A DNA stretch of 45,332 nucleotides from Verrucomicrobiota bacterium (lineage in GTDB: Bacteria; Verrucomicrobiota; Verrucomicrobiia; Chthoniobacterales; Terrimicrobiaceae), in contig JAPLTG010000007.1 of assembly GCA_026398255.1 (NCBI GenBank), positions 105,786 to 151,117 on the forward strand. The letters run 5' to 3'. Of this stretch, positions 36,943-45,332 are shown piece after piece; positions within the stretch are counted from its first letter, which is position 1, and every line of letters starts with the position of its first letter. The position numbers were made by a program, and so were the translations under genes. The notes under the pieces are model-generated. The model had not been told where the DNA came from. It saw nothing but the letters and a program-made list of their open reading frames with translations, and searched no databases.

Positions 36943-37464
36943 TCACACGGCTTCGGGCATCTTGAAATATCCGGCGAGCTTTTGGTTTTCATTCTCATCG
37001 TCGAGGAGGCCGAATTCCCTCAACTCGTGCTGGAATAAACGCAGACCGGCGACTTCTTGGATCGGCAGCCATTGGCTGACATGGGCGAGAACCGTGCGCA
37101 GGTCGGTCTCGGCGGGACTTTCCTCGCACGATGCAATCGCCTGGCAGAATGCGGCGCGTTCTTTGAACGACTCAGGCGCTGGAGGGATTTCGATCCATGT
37201 GTCGGAGCGCATGGAGCGGGTGTCCCCGGCAAGCCAGAGAAGGGCGGCGCCTTCGCTGAGGCATGACCAGGTGTGGACATGAACTTGGAGGCCGCCTGGT
37301 CGGTTGCGCAGGATTTCAAAGAGAATGAGGGCGGTGTCTGCGAGCAGCATTCCCGGGCCGAAAAGCTCTATGCGCAGTTCCTTCCCGGCGCGGGCCAAGG
37401 CGGGTTTGAGTTGGTGCATCAAGGCGACGGGATCGCCGCCGGAGAGGTTCAGGTGGATGGTCAC
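36943..37464 (-). CDS. Unknown protein, possibly a degenerate ClpP/SppA-fold
   Basis: 173 aa. ELRIELFGPGMLLADTALIL then VHTWSCLSEGAALLWLAGDT and RSMRSDTWIEI recall the alternating strand-helix layout of ClpP/SppA serine proteases, where a residue near SCLSEGAALL would sit at the nucleophile. No complete catalytic triad can be identified, so enzymatic activity is doubtful and the family call is tentative. Its start overlaps the stop of the LysM gene by 4 nt (37461-37464), so the two are co-translated and may work together at the envelope. Confidence 0.6.
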   Translation of the reverse strand: MTIHLNLSGGDPVALMHQLKPALARAGKELRIELFGPGMLLADTALILFEILRNRPGGLQVHVHTWSCLSEGAALLWLAGDTRSMRSDTWIEIPPAPESFKERAAFCQAIASCEESPAETDLRTVLAHVSQWLPIQEVAGLRLFQHELREFGLLDDENENQKLAGYFKMPEAV

Positions 37465-38279
37465 AGGGAGGCGATTTGTTCGGCGGGGACTTTGAGTTTT
37501 TGGCCAACGCGGAGCTGGCGCGGGTCGGACAGGTCATTCGCTTGCAGGAGGTCGTTGTAGGACACCTGCAGTTTGCGCGAGACCATGTAGAGGTTGTCGC
37601 CAGGGGCGAGGGTGTATTCGCTCGGGCGGGGAGCGGGTGCAGCGGGCTTAGGAGCCGGTGTGGTCGGGGCACTTGCGATCGAGGGGGCGGAGGAGACCTC
37701 GGGGTTTGTCGCGATCAATGGCACTGTCGCTCGCGATACGGGCAACGCTTCACGGGTTTCGACTGTCGGCAATGTCTGGGTTTGTGATGCGAGGAATGCT
37801 TTTCGGAGTGCGTCGTCGGTGGCTTGCGGTTGGCGAGGGGCCGTGTTGGCCACTACAGGAGTTGGCTTTGCCAGGGCCGGCGCGGGAGACTTTGGTTTTT
37901 CAGCAACAACGGCCTCGACCTTGGGCTCGGCTTTGGGCCTGGGCTTGGAATCAGCCACCTGTTTTTTGATCGGAGCCGGGGTGGCAACGACTTTGGGCTT
38001 CGCTGCCGGCTGTGGCCACTCGTTGCGGTCCAGTGAATCGGATTTGGGTCCGGGTTGTTTTTCAACGGGAGCTTCCGCAACCGGTGTTGGTTTTTTATCC
38101 GACTTGAGATTTGAAAAAGCAAAGATCCCGCCAACTCCGGCGAGGTGGATCGATAGGACAAGGATGAAAGCTGTAGCGAACGATATCCCGACCCGTTTGC
38201 GTTTTTTTATGGCATCCAGGTATTCGGGTTCGTCGATCCAGTGTGGGTGTTTCGTCGGGTATGTGGTGTTTGTTTTCAT
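37461..38279 (-). CDS. Membrane-anchored LysM peptidoglycan-binding protein
   Basis: 272 aa. A short cytoplasmic N terminus, one membrane helix (SFATAFILVLSIHLAGVGGI, about 33-52), a long Lys/Pro/Ala-rich periplasmic linker (about 60-210), and a C-terminal LysM domain with YTLAPGDNLYMVSRKLQVSY and LRVGQKLKVP. LysM binds the glycan backbone of peptidoglycan. The upstream region carries three AlgR/LytTR-like repeats, so it is probably controlled by the regulator encoded just upstream. Start ATG at 38279. Confidence 0.88.
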   Translation of the reverse strand: MKTNTTYPTKHPHWIDEPEYLDAIKKRKRVGISFATAFILVLSIHLAGVGGIFAFSNLKSDKKPTPVAEAPVEKQPGPKSDSLDRNEWPQPAAKPKVVATPAPIKKQVADSKPRPKAEPKVEAVVAEKPKSPAPALAKPTPVVANTAPRQPQATDDALRKAFLASQTQTLPTVETREALPVSRATVPLIATNPEVSSAPSIASAPTTPAPKPAAPAPRPSEYTLAPGDNLYMVSRKLQVSYNDLLQANDLSDPRQLRVGQKLKVPAEQIASL

Positions 38280-38336: not shown

Positions 38337-38409
38337 CCGTTCCTGCGGGCCTCTACAGACCGCTCGCCGGATTTTACCGCCGTTCACCCCCCGAATCCGA
38401 CCGCTCGCC
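38337..38409. promoter_or_regulatory. LytTR/AlgR-like triple direct repeat upstream of the LysM gene
   Basis: On the plus strand CCGCTCGCC (38360), CCGTTCACC (38380) and CCGCTCGCC (38401) recur at 20 and 21 bp, about two helical turns. A looser CCGTTCCTG lies at 38337. LytTR proteins such as AlgR bind CCGTTC-type direct repeats at this spacing. The nearest repeat is 81 nt before the LysM start on the minus strand, and the cluster starts 22 nt after the response-regulator gene ends. Confidence 0.65.
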
Positions 38410-38431: not shown

Positions 38432-39139
38432 TTAGATCGCCTTGAGGCGTCGAAATTCCGAACTCTGCCGCCGCGACATCTCGATGCGGACTCCATTCGT
38501 GAGAACCGCCACTAGACCGCTCTCGCCGTCTTCCACTTGGGTTACATACTCCAGATTGATCGCCTGCGTCCGGTTCACTTGGAAGAAAACCTCGGGGTCA
38601 ATTCGGCCCAGCACACTCTTGAGGGTTCCATTCACCATGGGGCCGCTTTTATCGGCGAGAACCAGCTTCGTATAGGAATCACCAGCCTCCAGCATATGAA
38701 TGTCTCCCACCTTGAGAAGCACATTTCGCGTCCCATCGCGGAACATCGCGGTTTCATGTTTGAGGAAAATCCTGACTTCTTCCGCGTCACTGGACTCACC
38801 AATTCGCTTCAGACTCTCCTTGAGCCGATGCGGATCGACGGGTTTGAGCAGATAATCCACCGCCTGTGTCTCAAAGGCGCGAACGGCATGCTCGGGATGG
38901 GCTGTAACAAAGATTACAGGAATTCCCTCGGCGGGCAGCGTCTCCAGAAGATCAAAACCCTGCTTCCCACCCCGAAGCTCGACATCCAGAAACATCACAT
39001 CTGGGCGTTGCTCGGTGAGGGCCTTCACGGCCTGCTCGATCGAACCTGCCTCGCGCACATCAGTGACACCAATATCCGCAAGCGCGTGTTTCAGGCTCCG
39101 CCGGGCCGGCGGTTCGTCATCGAGAATGAGAACATTCAT
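38432..39139 (-). CDS. LytTR-family DNA-binding response regulator
   Basis: 235 aa from the ATG at 39139 (a GTG at 39142 is in frame). The receiver domain has NVLILDDEPPARRSL for the acidic pocket, VMFLDVELRGGKQGF with the phosphoacceptor Asp, IFVTAHPEHAVRAF and the conserved Lys in YLLKPVDP. A LytTR domain (about 130-235) has DIHMLEAGDSYTKLVL, VLGRIDPEVFFQVNRTQ and a final GVRIEMSRRQSSEFRRL. It should be phosphorylated by the MASE1 kinase encoded 1.4 kb upstream in the same direction and bind the CCGTTC-like repeats at 38360 and 42167. Toxin-antitoxin genes on the other strand lie between the two. Confidence 0.93.
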   Translation of the reverse strand: MNVLILDDEPPARRSLKHALADIGVTDVREAGSIEQAVKALTEQRPDVMFLDVELRGGKQGFDLLETLPAEGIPVIFVTAHPEHAVRAFETQAVDYLLKPVDPHRLKESLKRIGESSDAEEVRIFLKHETAMFRDGTRNVLLKVGDIHMLEAGDSYTKLVLADKSGPMVNGTLKSVLGRIDPEVFFQVNRTQAINLEYVTQVEDGESGLVAVLTNGVRIEMSRRQSSEFRRLKAI

Positions 39140-39299
39140 CACAGCGATGTCACTCGCATCGGCACTAACTTGTCAACGAACTTGGCCTGCTAGCTCTGAA
39201 TCTTTCGATGAATATCGATGAGGTTTGTTTCACAAAGTCGCCATGCCTAGCCCCGAATACTTGTCTAGTCCTGAGTTCCGTGCATTTATAATCAATGAG

Positions 39300-39545
39300 A
39301 TGAGTATCACACTGGAATTAGATTTGCCTGAAGAGTTGGCATCAGAAGCCGCTTCAACAGGCTTATTGGAAAGCGGATCAATCTCCACTCTTCTCATGGA
39401 AGAAATTCGCCGCCGCAAATCCGCTGCCGAACTCAAATCCATCCTCACTGGTCTCCGCTCTCTCCCCGGAGAACCACTGTCTGATTCCGAAATCCAATCT
39501 GAAATTCATCTGGCAAGAGCCAAGCGCCAGCGCGGAGAAAGCTGA
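39300..39545 (+). CDS. Orphan antitoxin-like protein
   Basis: 81 aa from the ATG at 39300; the frame is open to 39225. SITLELDLPEELASEAASTG, LLMEEIRRRKSAAELKS and the C terminus SDSEIQSEIHLARAKRQR match small antitoxins usually paired with a PIN or other toxin. No toxin gene follows on this strand; instead the decayed hicA remnant begins 2 nt after its stop. It is either a solitary antitoxin left after loss of its toxin or a piece of a rearranged cluster. Confidence 0.6.
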   Translation: MSITLELDLPEELASEAASTGLLESGSISTLLMEEIRRRKSAAELKSILTGLRSLPGEPLSDSEIQSEIHLARAKRQRGES

Positions 39546-39547
39546 TC

Positions 39548-39583
39548 TCACGCCCTTCCGCTTATCGGTGGCAGTTCAGGCAA
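39548..39583 (-). pseudogene. hicA-like toxin remnant
   Basis: A TTG at 39583 overlaps the end of the hicB remnant and reads LPELPPISGRA before a stop at 39548-39550. LPPISGRE is the typical HicA N terminus. Only about 11 codons remain; the rest of the toxin, about 60 residues, has been lost next to the orphan antitoxin gene. Confidence 0.6.
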
Positions 39584-39796
39584 GGGCGAAACTTTCATCC
39601 CGCACTAAATGCAAACGGATCGCTTTGGGCATCGAATCTGGTGCGTCGAAAAAAAACCCCTTCACCGCATCGCCACCGCTTCGCGAAGAGCAACCCAATC
39701 ATCACCCTGCGTCACGATCGGTTCCGTCAACCACTCTGCCACAAACCCACCGTCGCTTTCTTGAACGACCTCAAAGATTAAATTAGGCACGACCAT
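39576..39796 (-). pseudogene. Frameshifted HicB-like antitoxin
   Basis: Starting at ATG 39796, the minus strand reads IFEVVQESDGGFVAEWLTEP then IVTQGDDWVALREAV and hits a stop at 39662-39664. In the next frame it continues VKGFFFDAPDSMPKAIRLHL then VRDESFALA and a stop at 39576-39578. Joined, it matches the HicB-like family (TQGD-type motif, then RLHLVRDE). The 221-nt length is one short of a multiple of three, so a single lost base explains the break. A hicA remnant follows, so this was a hicBA pair. Confidence 0.75.
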
Positions 39797-39859
39797 CGCT
39801 TAAGTCTGCGCTGATGTGAGCAGCTTGCAACCATCGAGTGGCCTGCTTATTTTTATCCT

Positions 39860-40114
39860 ATGACAAGCATCCCCATCCCAGAGGAGCTCCAACCTGCAGC
39901 CAATGAGATCACCGATCTACCGGAACGCGTCGCCCGCTTCATCAAAGCCGAAATCTCCCGCCGAAATCTCCAAAAAAACCGCTACGGCTCCGATATCCTC
40001 AGTCTTGTGGACAAAGCCTTCGCCGAAGCCCAAAACATCAAAAGCGCGGGATTCGACCTCGCCGAAGCCCGCGCAGAAATGGCACGGCTCCATAGCAACA
40101 TGACCAAGTCGTGA
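39860..40114 (+). CDS. Putative antitoxin of a PIN-domain pair
   Basis: 84 aa. An N-terminal helix-type region (TDLPERVARFIKAEISRRNL) and a C-terminal acidic, helical tail (FDLAEARAEMARLHSNM) fit a small antitoxin. The stop overlaps the GTG start of the PIN gene (40111-40114), the usual antitoxin-toxin coupling. The exact antitoxin family is not certain. Confidence 0.7.
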   Translation: MTSIPIPEELQPAANEITDLPERVARFIKAEISRRNLQKNRYGSDILSLVDKAFAEAQNIKSAGFDLAEARAEMARLHSNMTKS

Positions 40115-40539
40115 TTCGCGCCGTTCTGGATACCACCGTCGCCGTCGCTGCCGGCAAATCCGAATCCCCATCCAGCCCAAATCGCGAAATCATAGATCGG
40201 TGGCTGCAGGGTCAATTCACTCTTCTCATCTCGAGGGACATCGCGGCCGAATACGCCATCAAACTTCGAGATTGCGGCGTTGATGAGCCTACAATTCTTG
40301 CCTTCCTCCGCCAACTCGCCCTCTTGGCCGAAATCGTGGAAATCAAATATTTCCACTTCCGTCATTATCCCATCGATGAAAACGATATCGCATTTCTTCT
40401 CTGCGCAATGAATGGAGGGGCAACGCATCTCGTCAGCTACGACCCGCACTTATTGAATCTGGATATTCACTATCCGGAGGTGGACTTCATGCCATCACTC
40501 CCTTTTCTGATGACACTGCGACAAATCGAACCCCAGTAA
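40111..40539 (+). CDS. PIN-domain toxin
   Basis: 142 aa from a GTG at 40111. IRAVLDTTVAVAAG carries the first catalytic Asp. The middle has LISRDIAAEYAIKL with the conserved Glu, and YPIDENDIAFLLCAM and HLVSYDPHLL supply the later acidic residues. It resembles the COG1569-type PIN toxins encoded with small antitoxins. Such ribonucleases cleave RNA when free of antitoxin. The pair appears intact and points opposite to the kinase and regulator genes around it. Confidence 0.85.
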   Translation: MIRAVLDTTVAVAAGKSESPSSPNREIIDRWLQGQFTLLISRDIAAEYAIKLRDCGVDEPTILAFLRQLALLAEIVEIKYFHFRHYPIDENDIAFLLCAMNGGATHLVSYDPHLLNLDIHYPEVDFMPSLPFLMTLRQIEPQ

Positions 40540-40576: not shown

Positions 40577-42085
40577 TCAACTGACTGGCTTGATCCGAAC
40601 CAAAGCCTGAATCCAGCCATCGGGCGTCTTGCTGAACTCCACTCCGCTCCCAGTCGGGCAGGCTTCCTCGATGCGGGCGCGAACGCTGGCCAGTCCTACA
40701 CTTTCGCCCCAGTTAGCGGGATCGCATCCATCTGGTGCGGTGTTTCGAATCTTCACCAGCAAATCCCCACGATCCACAACCGCCGCTACATCGACCCGCC
40801 CGAAGCCATCGCTCACGCCATGCTTCACGGCGTTTTCTACAAGCGGTTGGAGCAGCATCGGAGGCACGCGGAATTTCTCAGCCTCGTCGTCTGCAGCAAC
40901 GCTCCATTCCAGACCCTCCTCGTAGCGCATTTTTTGCAACCGCAGGGCATCACGGATGATCTCCAACTCCTCGCCAAGCGGGATCAGCGGGTGTTTTGCC
41001 ACATCGAGCGATTTTCTGAGCAGCGAGGAAAGCGAGGTCAGACCTTCCTCCGCAGCCTTTCCATCCGTGCGGACAAGCGAATGAATTGCCGTGAGACAGT
41101 TGAAGAGAAAATGCGGATTCACCTGCGCTTTCAGCCGCTCCAGTTCGGCTTTGCGCGTGGCCGCCACAGCCTGCAGCACCTTTTCGCGCCGCTGAGCATC
41201 CGATCCCGCTCCGATGAGCAGACCGCTTGTCGTGATGATCGCGATAAAAACCTCGATCTGCCAAATCGAAGCCAGCGCGTTGTCGGAAACAAACGGGCCG
41301 AGGCCCATGCTGGTTGCCGCTACGGCCATCGCCACAGCACCAAGAACGGCAAGTGCCGATCCACACAGGCCGCGTGACAACGCCACCCACACCACAAACG
41401 GAAACGGCAAATAAGCGAGCGCCTGTCCCATTGTGCCTGACCCTAGCGAACCGAAGAATGCGAGCCAAGAGGCTGCAAGCACCAACAGAAGCTGCAGCCC
41501 CGCCGACACAGAAATTCCGAGTCCAAGTCCGCGCAGAGAAAAACGCCTCGCAGCGAGCAAGAGAGCCACTGGAGTAATCACTATTGCCCCGGCCGCATTC
41601 GCCATCCAGTAAAGCCCCCCTATTGGCAGGACATAAGATGCCTCGATCATCCCTGCGAGCTTCATGCTAGCGGCAGTCCAGAACCCCGCGATGCCCATTG
41701 GGAGGACCACGCCAAGCCCAGAGAGAATCAAAATATCCCGCGTTGATTCGAGAGCCGCATCAAAGCCACGCCACCGGCACAGCCAGCGACCGAGATAAAC
41801 GGAAACCACAATTCCCAGTGGCGCGAGCGCGCTGAAATGCCAAGGATTCCCCGCCGCAATACTACCCGCGACTAGCGGCAGCAGTATCCCTGGAGCAACC
41901 CGCAAACCCATTAGCAGTGTGGCTGCCAGAGCGATTCCCACCGCCGGCCACACCGGAGATATGGCCGTGTAATCGCTTGCCAACGCCGCTCGAAGTCCAA
42001 ACGCCGCCACTGAGATCAATGCGGCAACGCCAAGGTTTTCGATGAAAATCCTCGCTGCAGAAATTGACCTCTTCTCTTTGTTCAT
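40577..42085 (-). CDS. MASE1-type sensor histidine kinase (LytS-like)
   Basis: 502 aa from the ATG at 42085 (a TTG at 42097 is in frame). About eight membrane helices (residues 15-290) have the MASE1 pattern, with AISPVWPAVGIALAATLL near the N terminus. The kinase core has QVNPHFLFNCLTAIHSL with the phosphorylated His, PPMLLQPLVENAVKHG (N box) and GLASVRARIEEACP (ATP lid), typical of the LytS/YehU family. It should pass phosphate to the LytTR regulator. Its stop lies 1.4 kb upstream of the regulator's start, with toxin-antitoxin genes in between. The triple repeat at 42167 lies 82 nt upstream of the start, so autoregulation is possible. The sensed signal is unknown. Confidence 0.93.
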   Translation of the reverse strand: MNKEKRSISAARIFIENLGVAALISVAAFGLRAALASDYTAISPVWPAVGIALAATLLMGLRVAPGILLPLVAGSIAAGNPWHFSALAPLGIVVSVYLGRWLCRWRGFDAALESTRDILILSGLGVVLPMGIAGFWTAASMKLAGMIEASYVLPIGGLYWMANAAGAIVITPVALLLAARRFSLRGLGLGISVSAGLQLLLVLAASWLAFFGSLGSGTMGQALAYLPFPFVVWVALSRGLCGSALAVLGAVAMAVAATSMGLGPFVSDNALASIWQIEVFIAIITTSGLLIGAGSDAQRREKVLQAVAATRKAELERLKAQVNPHFLFNCLTAIHSLVRTDGKAAEEGLTSLSSLLRKSLDVAKHPLIPLGEELEIIRDALRLQKMRYEEGLEWSVAADDEAEKFRVPPMLLQPLVENAVKHGVSDGFGRVDVAAVVDRGDLLVKIRNTAPDGCDPANWGESVGLASVRARIEEACPTGSGVEFSKTPDGWIQALVRIKPVS

Positions 42086-42166
42086 TGGATCGATCAACTA
42101 GTCGGCATCACTCACCCCTTGCAACCACCATCACATTTTTAGGTTGTGATTCCTTTTGAGTTCCAG

Positions 42167-42217
42167 CCGTTCATTGCCGTATTTTTACCGCTCAACCTCC
42201 TAATTTATCCGCCCATT
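42167..42217. promoter_or_regulatory. LytTR/AlgR-like triple direct repeat between kinase and envelope operon
   Basis: CCGTTCATT (42167), CCGCTCAAC (42188) and CCGCCCATT (42209) repeat at exactly 21 bp. They share the CCGTTC-type core with the set at 38360. The site lies 49 nt before the ATG at 42266 and 82 nt before the divergent kinase start. Confidence 0.7.
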
Positions 42218-42265
42218 GAAAAGCGGGTTTACGCCCTCCTGATCCATCCATAACCTTTGCTCGCC

Positions 42266-43297
42266 ATGATAAAAATTCATCAACACATCGCAGCAGTTAC
42301 TATCGCAACACTATCCACCCTTGTTACGCCCACTCAGGCTCAATCCGCCGTCAAACCTACAGAGGAAGCTGGGCCAAGCCTTCCAGAGATTTGGCAAAAA
42401 GCCGGACCGCGAGAGCGCCTCAAAGCCCTACGCGCTGCGGAACTCGATGCCGACCGACTCCTCGCCGAACGCATCTACGGCTTACAAGTCGATGCAGAGA
42501 CGACAGTCGCGAATCTGGCCGACACAAACGACGCCGTTGACGCTGCGGTTTCGGCCACCCTTGTGGGGTCGGTTACAAATGGCGAACCCGAGTATCTCGC
42601 AGACGGATCTGTGCAAGTCGTCCGTGCCGTCAAAATCCGGGAAGTCATCAACACACTCAACACCGCTGTTAAGGGAAAAATTCTCTCCGATGGCTCCTTT
42701 GAAACTCTTTCCAACAAGACCAAGACAAACACGGAGGTGAAGGACAGCGTTATTGATGTCATGGGTAATGCGGCTCTTCCCAACTCGGAGGGTCATCAAA
42801 AGATTATGGCGAAGCGAGCCGCCGAACTCGATGCTTACCGCCGCTTGGCCGCCAGGATGATGGGCATCAAGATCGATGGTGAGACGACTGTCCGCGACAT
42901 GGCCCTTGAAAATGACGAACTTGTTGCAGCCCTCTCTCATGTGCTTAAAGGCGCCACCCCTACAGCCATCAAATACAACAAGGATGATGGATCCTGCGAA
43001 GTCACCATGAGTATCAAAACAGCCGATGTCCTGCGCACCACGAAACGCACTGTGAAAGGCGACAAAGTGCAAACAACCATTAAAGACGAAATCAATGAGA
43101 AATCCTTCTCGGAGACGGGACGAGGCGCGATGCGCGACATAGCCAAAGCTGAAACTCCATCCGAGACTGCCACGGAAAGCGTTCCTGCCAATCAGCCAAC
43201 CATCGATGCCGAGGTAAAAATCTCCGGCAAAGATCCGTTTTTTGAAACCACGGCCATCATCAAGCAAGTCGTCCAAAGCGGCCCAGTCGTGGAGTAA
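42266..43297 (+). CDS. Secreted protein with two LPP20-like domains
   Basis: 343 aa from the ATG at 42266 (TTG 42257 is in frame). A signal peptide (AAVTIATLSTLVTPTQAQSA) is present. Two repeats follow: RLKALRAAELDADRLLAERI then YGLQVDAETTVANLADTND, and KIMAKRAAELDAYRRLAARM then MGIKIDGETTVRDMALENDE. This is the RAAELDAxRxLAE...G pattern of the LPP20/FlgT-type domain, which occurs in envelope and flagellar-associated proteins. Domain duplication is visible at protein level. The C terminus is Thr/Glu-rich. It is the first gene of an operon with two lipoproteins and a CsgG/DUF4384 protein, and LytTR-like repeats lie just upstream. Confidence 0.8.
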   Translation: MIKIHQHIAAVTIATLSTLVTPTQAQSAVKPTEEAGPSLPEIWQKAGPRERLKALRAAELDADRLLAERIYGLQVDAETTVANLADTNDAVDAAVSATLVGSVTNGEPEYLADGSVQVVRAVKIREVINTLNTAVKGKILSDGSFETLSNKTKTNTEVKDSVIDVMGNAALPNSEGHQKIMAKRAAELDAYRRLAARMMGIKIDGETTVRDMALENDELVAALSHVLKGATPTAIKYNKDDGSCEVTMSIKTADVLRTTKRTVKGDKVQTTIKDEINEKSFSETGRGAMRDIAKAETPSETATESVPANQPTIDAEVKISGKDPFFETTAIIKQVVQSGPVVE

Positions 43298-43301
43298 GAA
43301 A

Positions 43302-43628
43302 ATGAAAAAAGCCCCAGCCCTTACCATTCTACTCTGCTGCCTCCTAAGCGCCTGCGCCAGCAGCCAGCCCCGCCCTGTGGCCAGTTACTCATCGGCCCTT
43401 CGCTCATCAGAAAGCGAACCGAGACAACTCGCCACAATGAGCGACAAGGAAGTTGATGATCAGCGCGCCGGCACCAGCAAGAAAGAAACCACTGCCGAGA
43501 GCCAAACCACTTCTAAACGCGGGAAAATTAAAAAACAGGAGTCCGAAGTCACCGAATTGGTGGAAACGGACATTTCCACCGTGATCGAAACAACCTCTTC
43601 ACCCACAGCCGATCAGGATGTCCAGTAA
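43302..43628 (+). CDS. Small Ser/Thr-rich lipoprotein
   Basis: 108 aa from the ATG at 43302, 4 nt after the LPP20-like gene. Signal peptide with lipobox (CCLLSAC, Cys about residue 18). The mature part is hydrophilic, low in complexity and rich in Ser, Thr, Glu and Lys (TSKKETTAESQTTSKRGK), probably disordered. No family recognised. It could tether or link the neighbouring envelope proteins. Confidence 0.7.
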   Translation: MKKAPALTILLCCLLSACASSQPRPVASYSSALRSSESEPRQLATMSDKEVDDQRAGTSKKETTAESQTTSKRGKIKKQESEVTELVETDISTVIETTSSPTADQDVQ

Positions 43629-43650
43629 TCGGCGAGGACATGGAGACACC

Positions 43651-44745
43651 ATGCGATTGTCAAACTACCCCCGAATTAGGTCTTGCCTGCTTCTCTGTGT
43701 GTCGATTGCCCTCTGCGGTGAAGTTTCAGCCGCGATCGACCCCTTCCAGAAACTCGCAGCCGACCTAGCGGCGGACTCCCCCGAGGGAAAAGTCAATGTG
43801 GGGGTGGGCAACTTCGCCTATGAGAATACAGACCTGCTTTCGCCCTTCTCTTCGCTGCTCCGGGATGAGTTGGAGATTACTCTCGGGAAAACCGGGAAAT
43901 TCAAGGTCGTCACCCGTGACCGCCTTGCCGACCTTCAGATGGAAGGTAAGTTTCAGGGCAAGGAAATCCTTGAGCCAGGCACCGGCGTTGAGAAGGTTTC
44001 CATCGAAGGGGTAAAGGGAATCATTCGGGGGCGATTTTACGCCACTGGAGACGAAGTAACAGTCTATGCAGAACTCGCCTGGCTGGAGGGGGGCGAGATT
44101 AAAAAAGCCCGCATCGCCATTCCCTCAGAAAACATCCGTGCAAAAATCTGGCCCGATCCTGCTGACGCCGCAGCCAAGCCGATGGATGGCGTTATCAAGC
44201 CGCAGAACATCGAGCAAAGCCTCGCCAATGTGCAGGAGATCGCCAAAGACCGCCTCGCCAAAGTGCCGAAGGATTTTCCGGTGGAAATCTTCACTGTGGA
44301 TGGCCGCCGCGCCTTTGCTGAAAAGGATAATGTCTCATTCCGCGTGCGCAGCGCCCGCGATTGCCACATCGCCGTTCTCTGCCACCAGAGCGACGGCACC
44401 ACCGTCGTCCTCTTTCCAAACCGCTTCTCAAGAAACACCCTCATTCCTGCCAATAAAGCCATCGACATCCCAGGCACGCACAAGAGCGGATTCGAGATCG
44501 AGATCGGCCCGCCCTACGGCTCCGATGTCGTCGAAGTCATCGCCTGCACTCAACCCAGCGAACTTCACAAGGCGCTATCCCAATACGCCTCCGAAACAAG
44601 CGCGCCCGCTCCCTTCCAAGTCCTCACCCGAGGCATGGCCGTGAAAGGAATCGACTCCGCCATCGCCGCTGCCAAAGTCGGCTCCACCGCCGCCCTGCTA
44701 TGGTCCCAAGACTCCATCGTCATCAGCACCTTCCCAAAACAATAA
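43651..44745 (+). CDS. CsgG/FlgO-like plus DUF4384 envelope protein
   Basis: 364 aa from the ATG at 43651, with GGAG about 6 nt upstream; the frame is open to 43618. A signal peptide is followed by a CsgG/FlgO-like part (about 35-150) with VGVGNFAYENTDLLSPFSSL, LLRDELEITLGKTGKFKVVT and RDRLADLQMEG. A DUF4384 domain (about 225-320) follows, with NVSFRVRSARDCHIAVLCHQ and VVLFPNRFSRN. CsgG-type proteins form or assist outer-membrane pores; DUF4384 occurs in secreted and kinase-linked envelope proteins. The set with LPP20-like and lipoprotein genes suggests an envelope assembly or export device (inference). Confidence 0.8.
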   Translation: MRLSNYPRIRSCLLLCVSIALCGEVSAAIDPFQKLAADLAADSPEGKVNVGVGNFAYENTDLLSPFSSLLRDELEITLGKTGKFKVVTRDRLADLQMEGKFQGKEILEPGTGVEKVSIEGVKGIIRGRFYATGDEVTVYAELAWLEGGEIKKARIAIPSENIRAKIWPDPADAAAKPMDGVIKPQNIEQSLANVQEIAKDRLAKVPKDFPVEIFTVDGRRAFAEKDNVSFRVRSARDCHIAVLCHQSDGTTVVLFPNRFSRNTLIPANKAIDIPGTHKSGFEIEIGPPYGSDVVEVIACTQPSELHKALSQYASETSAPAPFQVLTRGMAVKGIDSAIAAAKVGSTAALLWSQDSIVISTFPKQ

Positions 44746-44749
44746 TTGC

Positions 44750-45190
44750 ATGAGAACCATACTGCTACTCATACTCTGCTCACTACTGTCTGCCTGTGCG
44801 ACAACAAAAAAAGACCCGGTTTGGTCGGAGTTCTACTACCCCCAGGAAGTTCTCCTTAAGCCTGCCCCCAAAACTGACCCTTCAGGAGTTCAGGGAAAAT
44901 CCACTTTTTTGCAGAACGAGGCCGAATTTAAAGAGCATATGGATACCCTCACGATAGATTTAAAAAATCTCATCATCGCAGGGATTTACACCCCAGGCCC
45001 TAGCCCGCTTGATCCTGAGAAACTAAACTCCATCGTCTCCGAGTTCGGCGGCGACCGTTATGAATACTTCGCATACCCTCTAAGCCCCACAGCTACATAT
45101 AATCACATTTGGATAAAGCTTTCTCCTGAACGCCAAAAAATACTCCACAAACAAGGAATCATCGACTTCAAACTTCCTCCCGCCCAATAA
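44750..45190 (+). CDS. Small lipoprotein, last gene of the envelope operon
   Basis: 146 aa. Signal peptide with lipobox (CSLLSAC, Cys about residue 16). The mature protein is soluble, with segments LQNEAEFKEHMDTLTIDLKN and GGDRYEYFAYPLSPTATYNH. I do not recognise a family. It begins 4 nt after the CsgG/DUF4384 gene, so it is co-transcribed with it. Confidence 0.75.
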   Translation: MRTILLLILCSLLSACATTKKDPVWSEFYYPQEVLLKPAPKTDPSGVQGKSTFLQNEAEFKEHMDTLTIDLKNLIIAGIYTPGPSPLDPEKLNSIVSEFGGDRYEYFAYPLSPTATYNHIWIKLSPERQKILHKQGIIDFKLPPAQ

Positions 45191-45266
45191 ACTAAGGGTC
45201 TTGTCCAGTTTAGAGGGGAAAATAGCGAGTTTGCGTTAGCAATATTGAGTAGATGTTAACACTTCG

Positions 45267-45332
45267 ATGATTGAAACGCCACTCCGATTCTTTGAGGTGA
45301 ATGAGGAATTTTTCCTTCCGGACTCCGCGAAG
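45267..45332 (+). CDS. Possible start of a gene cut by the window end
   Basis: An ATG at 45267 opens a frame that runs to the last base (22 codons, MIETPLRFFEVNEEFFLPDS...). No Shine-Dalgarno sequence precedes it. It may be a real gene start, but too little is present to identify it. The 76 nt before it hold no other feature apart from a weak inverted repeat near the previous stop. Confidence 0.3.
   Translation, partial: MIETPLRFFEVNEEFFLPDSAK

Follow-up and report, generated by a model that had tools for sequence, protein, structure and literature searches.

The locus at 42266-45190 of the window (the whole stretch of 45,332 nucleotides that was analysed, G000:C26:105786-151117, whose right edge is the end of the contig) is best explained, with a probability of roughly 0.45, as part of a longer operon building a protease module of the cell envelope, in which an H-ring-like scaffold is combined with caspase-fold proteases. 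Genes A-D are predicted from their sequence context to be the promoter-proximal part of an operon of about 10 kb with the order A-B-C-D-[IS]-E-TPR-CHAT-F-G-H, whose second half lies on another contig of the same assembly. Since this operon joins flagellar-ring-like proteins to secreted caspase relatives in the genome of the window (G000) and in its relatives, it probably encodes a proteolytic device of the envelope and not a component of flagella or curli.

Work on bacterial caspase relatives mostly treats them as effectors in the cytoplasm; if the reading is true, an operon exporting them together with ring-forming proteins of flagellar type raises the question of the role of a caspase-fold protease in the envelope, and FlgP/FlgT-type proteins would have roles beyond the flagellum. 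The FGE and DUF4384 domains are already known as companions of caspase homologues (PMC6426788), and in bacterial conflict systems caspase and CHAT proteins are described as effectors and FGE/CLec domains as sensors (PMC10907252). What is new, as far as searched in one phylum and in a partial literature library in which no description of the combination was found, is the link of CHAT/caspase proteins to LPP20/FlgT-type proteins in a single operon.

Gene content of the operon and its continuation past a mobile element

Genes A-D (Table 1) are separated by 4, 22, and 4 bp, and the earlier note, which had described them as tightly packed genes for a secreted two-repeat LPP20-like protein, two lipoproteins, and a CsgG-like protein with DUF4384, is borne out in the coordinates and in these assignments, the CsgG part being partial and sub-threshold. 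The localisation of the module proteins was called from signal peptides and lipoboxes judged by eye.

Table 1. Features of the locus; coordinates refer to the window unless contig C33 is given.
Feature	Coordinates	Strand	Description
LysM protein	37461-38279	-	N-terminal hydrophobic stretch; second triple repeat upstream
Second putative LytTR-type triple repeat	38360-38407	+	between RR stop and LysM start; repeats at 38360/38380/38401, 20/21-bp steps
Response regulator (RR)	38432-39142	-	REC + LytTR
Sensor kinase (HK)	40577-42097	-	MASE1 + LytS-type His_kinase; divergent from A
Putative LytTR-type operator, HK-A gap	42167-42216	+	direct repeats CCGTTCA, CCGCTCA, CCGCCCA; starts 42167/42188/42209, 21-bp pitch
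Probable A promoter	42228-42254	+	TTTACG-15 bp-CATAAC, 11 bp past third repeat
Gene A	42266-43297	+	343 aa; two tandem LPP20/FlgP-like repeats; signal peptide, lipobox absent
Gene B	43302-43628	+	small lipoprotein, lipobox LLSAC; evolves fast
Gene C	43651-44745	+	signal peptide; partial CsgG-like domain, DUF4384 at C-terminus
Gene D	44750-45190	+	lipoprotein, lipobox LLSAC
Target-site duplication AAACTAA, 7 bp	45189-45195		left copy; right copy at C33:138-144
IS1595/ISXO2-type element, left 137 bp	45196-45332		contig C26 ends within element
E	C33:165-779		no family match
TPR-CHAT	C33:791-4468		1225 aa, signal sequence, CHAT peptidase
F	C33:4472-4930		lipoprotein, weakly DUF4156-like (E 0.0015)
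G	C33:4930-5583		lipoprotein
H	C33:5586-6830		FlgT_N-like, E 1.2e-6

The two halves of A are homologous, their LPP20 repeats aligning over 88 residues with a score of 158 against a maximum of 65 in 1000 shuffles. In a single-protein search A matches the Pfam LPP20 family at E 7e-4, under the gathering score, and a profile built from eight A proteins matches solved FlgP-type chains, in particular 9hmf_C (E 6.7e-12), which carries the annotation 'Lipoprotein, putative', and the FlgP of 8z5n (E 2.1e-7). The N-terminus of A (...TPTQAQSAV) has no cysteine and thus does not bear the lipoprotein signal of the LPP20/FlgP family, so that the protein would be exported and apparently unlipidated. The position of B is occupied by a short lipoprotein in most relatives; assignment of B to the NGK_0946 family was rejected, the match being far under the cut-off and probably due to the signal peptide. 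In G010 and G007 a gene for a four-helix S23-like protein, absent from the window, is located between B and C (L034:13467-13829, L035:11820-12167).

C matches DUF4384 at E 8.7e-17 (61.4 bits vs. a cut-off of 27), a domain recognised in all 13 members of its family. The CsgG match in its N-terminal half is restricted to about 60 residues (~62 of 210 positions) at E 0.003, with 17.3 bits vs. a cut-off of 20.8, and is found in 9 of the 13 members; neither a clear lipobox nor a Pfam match to FlgO was detected in C. The gene is present in a single copy in G000, and extra partial copies were observed in G095 (N-terminal part only; L038:1631-2788) and in G025 (C-terminal part only; L031:4461-5108). 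The orthologue of D in G010 sits between a caspase-FGE gene and E followed by TPR-CHAT.

The operon, described with four genes in the earlier note, does not stop at D. A mobile element begins 5 bp past the stop codon of D, and its complete copy of about 744 bp (C37:51967-52710) encodes a transposase whose sequence we take to be IS1595/ISXO2-like, the basis of the family name. The 137 bases that close the window recur at several contig ends and inside contig C37, and contig C33 opens with the final 137 bases of the element. Contig C33 is read as the far side of the break because AAACTAA is present on both flanks of the IS, as expected for the target duplication of one single insertion, and because D, E, and TPR-CHAT are consecutive in the relative G010. 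The effector half of the operon was therefore hidden from the window by a break at the IS just past D, an example of how an IS-caused contig break can conceal such a half; the insertion between D and E may also split transcription or lower the expression of the protease half in G000. An element of this type explains several breaks of the assembly, being present at the ends of C10, C28, C32, and C33 besides that of the window, and it also occurs at C39:17791.

On contig C33 the genes E, TPR-CHAT, F, G, and H follow one another with spacings of 11, 3, -1, and 2 bp. The TPR-CHAT protein is assigned as a CHAT peptidase on the basis of its match to PF12770 (E 1.7e-55) and of the motifs LHLATHG at 1001 and SACETG at 1091, and its gene is the only one with a CHAT domain in G000. 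The single C14 gene of this genome (C39:63266), considered as a missing part of the operon, was discarded since it is located elsewhere, among unrelated neighbours, and is unlinked to the locus. H scores 29.4 bits vs. a cut-off of 28.8 for FlgT_N, barely above it, and this match recurs in all 10 members of the H family; FlgT_M and FlgT_C are not matched in H and its PDB matches are weak (E 0.075), the resemblance to FlgT being confined to the N-terminal part.

Distribution among relatives and linkage to CHAT/caspase proteases

The survey covered 384 genomes of one class. The relatives that carry a name are MAGs of Verrucomicrobia, in several cases of lake origin, and include Terrimicrobiaceae, Spartobacteria, and one labelled Akkermansiaceae. 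At E < 1e-50, A is present in 14 of the 384 genomes and C in 11, and both occur in 10 (Fisher p 6e-16, uncorrected for kinship), where they always lie within 2.5 kb of each other. The gene order, for which the earlier note had proposed a neighbourhood search, is thus conserved and not scattered. In particular, gene maps of 20 C loci reveal a recurring core A-(short lipoprotein)-C-(H) with variable companion genes, an H-like gene being near A/C in eight cases (G010, G011, L033, G046, G413, G417, G276, and G239). The operon is patchily distributed among freshwater Verrucomicrobia, and a plasmid search with A and C gave no match.

The linkage of the module to CHAT/caspase genes is strong: on the gene maps and by Pfam, a CHAT or caspase (C14) gene is close to C at 15 of the 20 loci. 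The remaining five are those of G046, G239, G002, G025, and the second locus of G011, the last three lying on short contigs or close to where a contig stops. The companion is TPR-CHAT in G000, G010, G001, G004, G075, G417, and G122, with a TPR part at the contig end in G413; a caspase-FGE protein in G010 and G007; a caspase with a long propeller-like N-terminus in L033, G075, G413, G276, and G010; and other caspases in G011, G122, G095, and G417. The C14 caspases of the relatives contain His/Cys motifs, and the effectors inspected bear export signals. In the genus of the window, CHAT/C14 genes are present in 6 of 7 genomes with C vs. none of 9 without it (p 9e-4; 5e-3 excluding G011); at the Pfam level CHAT is found in 4 genomes and C14 in 4, giving 5 genomes combined, each with C. 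The caspase beside C in G011 has a Pfam E of 1.3e-18 and was missed in the genome scan. The protease is exchangeable and neither G046 nor G239 has one close to C, so that the core may function in its absence. In G075 the caspase gene that follows C (L037:13783-17172) is interrupted by a stop codon, with one internal TAA.

Two-component system and putative LytTR-type operators

The adjoining dedicated two-component system and the operator shared with a LysM gene, both reported by the earlier note, were recovered, the latter as a sequence pattern. The arrangement reported for LytTR activators consists of direct repeats of 9 bp, spaced by about 12 bp and placed about 10 bp before the -35 element (PMC6193735), and operators with three repeats are already known (PMC11347149). 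The repeats in the gap between the kinase gene and A, of the type RCCGYTCR, agree with the reported spacing and lie near the probable promoter of A, beside a gene for a LytTR regulator, which is consistent with an operator of this type; the system differs from those described in its apparent targets, a LysM gene and an operon for envelope and protease proteins. The repeats on the LysM side are on the strand opposite to that gene. Pairs of CCGYTCR repeats, with one mismatch allowed, were found 3 times vs. 0.75 expected from shuffles. The triple repeats before A and before LysM are kept in G010 and G007, as is the arrangement of repeats and promoter before A.

The module is divergent from or near a LytS-type kinase gene in eight genomes (G000, G010, G007, G005, G001, G004, G075, and G095), in which the LytTR regulator usually stands behind the kinase; this pair adjoins the module solely in the genus of the window and in family f13. 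Kinase and regulator genes are adjacent in G001, G075, and G095, and in G000 they are separated by toxin-antitoxin-like genes (39225-40539, with a PIN-type gene assigned by eye at 40111-40539), near-identical PIN-type genes being present in G010 and G005. After the regulator of G010, two copies of the LytTR-type repeat unit are separated by about 1.1 kb (L049:1130, 2239).

Proposed mechanism and alternative explanations

In the mechanism that we infer for the module, three proteins that are related to FlgP, FlgO, and FlgT or only resemble them (A, C, and H) would assemble with the lipoproteins at the outer membrane, on its periplasmic side, into a scaffold that would dock and gate the exported caspase-fold proteases. 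TPR, FGE, or propeller-like parts would select the partners, and the protease would be the effector, swapped between lineages. A signal from the envelope would be detected by the LytS-type kinase, and the operon and the LysM protein would be activated jointly by the LytTR regulator, so that envelope stress or attack would release proteolysis. A more specific and only tentative proposal is that this is an undescribed H-ring-like scaffold, independent of the flagellum, at which exported and interchangeable caspase-fold proteases are docked or gated at the outer membrane, with a dedicated two-component system as the switch; this would imply periplasmic or surface caspases. The module resembles orthocaspases and TPR-CHAT proteins in its C14 and CHAT domains, which bear the His and Cys motifs, and differs from them in that its proteases are exported and encoded in an operon with H-ring-like proteins, lipoproteins, and a LytS/LytTR pair.

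The Vibrio H-ring is built of FlgO, FlgP, and FlgT (PMC6375700), and a basal disk of FlgP is found in Campylobacter. A flagellar accessory cluster of this kind, which would reinforce the motor at the outer membrane with A as FlgP, C as FlgO, and H as FlgT, would account for the match of the A profile to FlgP chains, for the FlgT_N match of H, for the adjacency of the genes, with the exported CsgG-like C in the place of FlgO, and for the presence of FliF in G000, from which the organism is probably flagellated. However, FliF, found in 7 further genomes with A or C, is absent from G075, G095, G276, and G239 (95-98% complete), 4 of the 10 C carriers tested, so the module is not restricted to genomes with a flagellum. 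Moreover, A has two LPP20 repeats, C bears DUF4384 instead of a FlgO match, the likeness of H to FlgT stops at its N-terminal part, secreted CHAT/caspase proteases are often alongside, and the regions read around the module contain no recognisable flagellar gene. The statement of the earlier note that flagellar genes are missing therefore holds locally and fails for the genome as a whole. The flagellar explanation is improbable, and the resemblance to the H-ring is, on sequence grounds, one of parts and not of membership, since A and H resemble FlgP and the N-terminus of FlgT but C has no FlgO match. An even more improbable alternative is a curli-like or CsgG-type secretion pore: C shares a partial CsgG domain with the curli exporter but differs from it in the sub-threshold extent of the match, in having a different C-terminal half, in the lack of a clear lipobox, and in the absence of curli genes from the operon. 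An exporter substrate was likewise not seen, and the secretion device suggested by the earlier note has no direct support; its outer-membrane reading is plausible.

Control of wall-related functions is a known role of LytS/LytTR systems, and the LytTR-type pattern common to the operon and the LysM gene, the numerous lipoproteins, and the weak DUF4156 likeness of F would all suit an envelope or cell-wall stress module. In it, the assembly of peptidoglycan or of the outer membrane would be regulated by lipoproteins and the CsgG-like protein, and the proteases would clear damaged proteins, serving quality control and not death. Such a module is rather unlikely, as C is patchy (13 of 384 genomes of the class), unlike housekeeping quality control, and the operon encodes no amidase, transglycosylase, or chaperone; the cell-wall sensing put forward by the earlier note found no direct support. 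The patchy occurrence and a constant core with variable effectors (CHAT, caspase-FGE, caspase-propeller) would also fit a surface conflict system, directed against predators or phages or serving self-lysis, whose caspase-fold effectors are freed on envelope breach, and the known use of these domains as conflict effectors and sensors points the same way. Nevertheless, export signals on the effectors contrast with the described caspase defence systems, which act in the cytoplasm, PADLOC returned only general TPR and caspase matches, and no neighbouring defence genes were seen except toxin-antitoxin-like pairs, making this explanation distinctly unlikely. The envelope protease module remains the preferred reading.

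Structure prediction gave poor AlphaFold2 models, with a pLDDT of 36 for C (8 sequences) and 48 for A (4 sequences). With the latter model Foldseek returned no match at E < 0.001, and its rows for pore proteins (membrane attack complex, gasdermin) had a probability < 0.2 and were not taken as evidence; a PDB profile search with C gave nothing relevant, and Rfam detected tRNA only. Among the companion proteins, that encoded at L034:7296-9635 combines a caspase with two FGE domains, and these domains have a sub-cut-off match to GldK/PorK, a ring lipoprotein of the T9SS, which may indicate a ring- or ligand-binding half.
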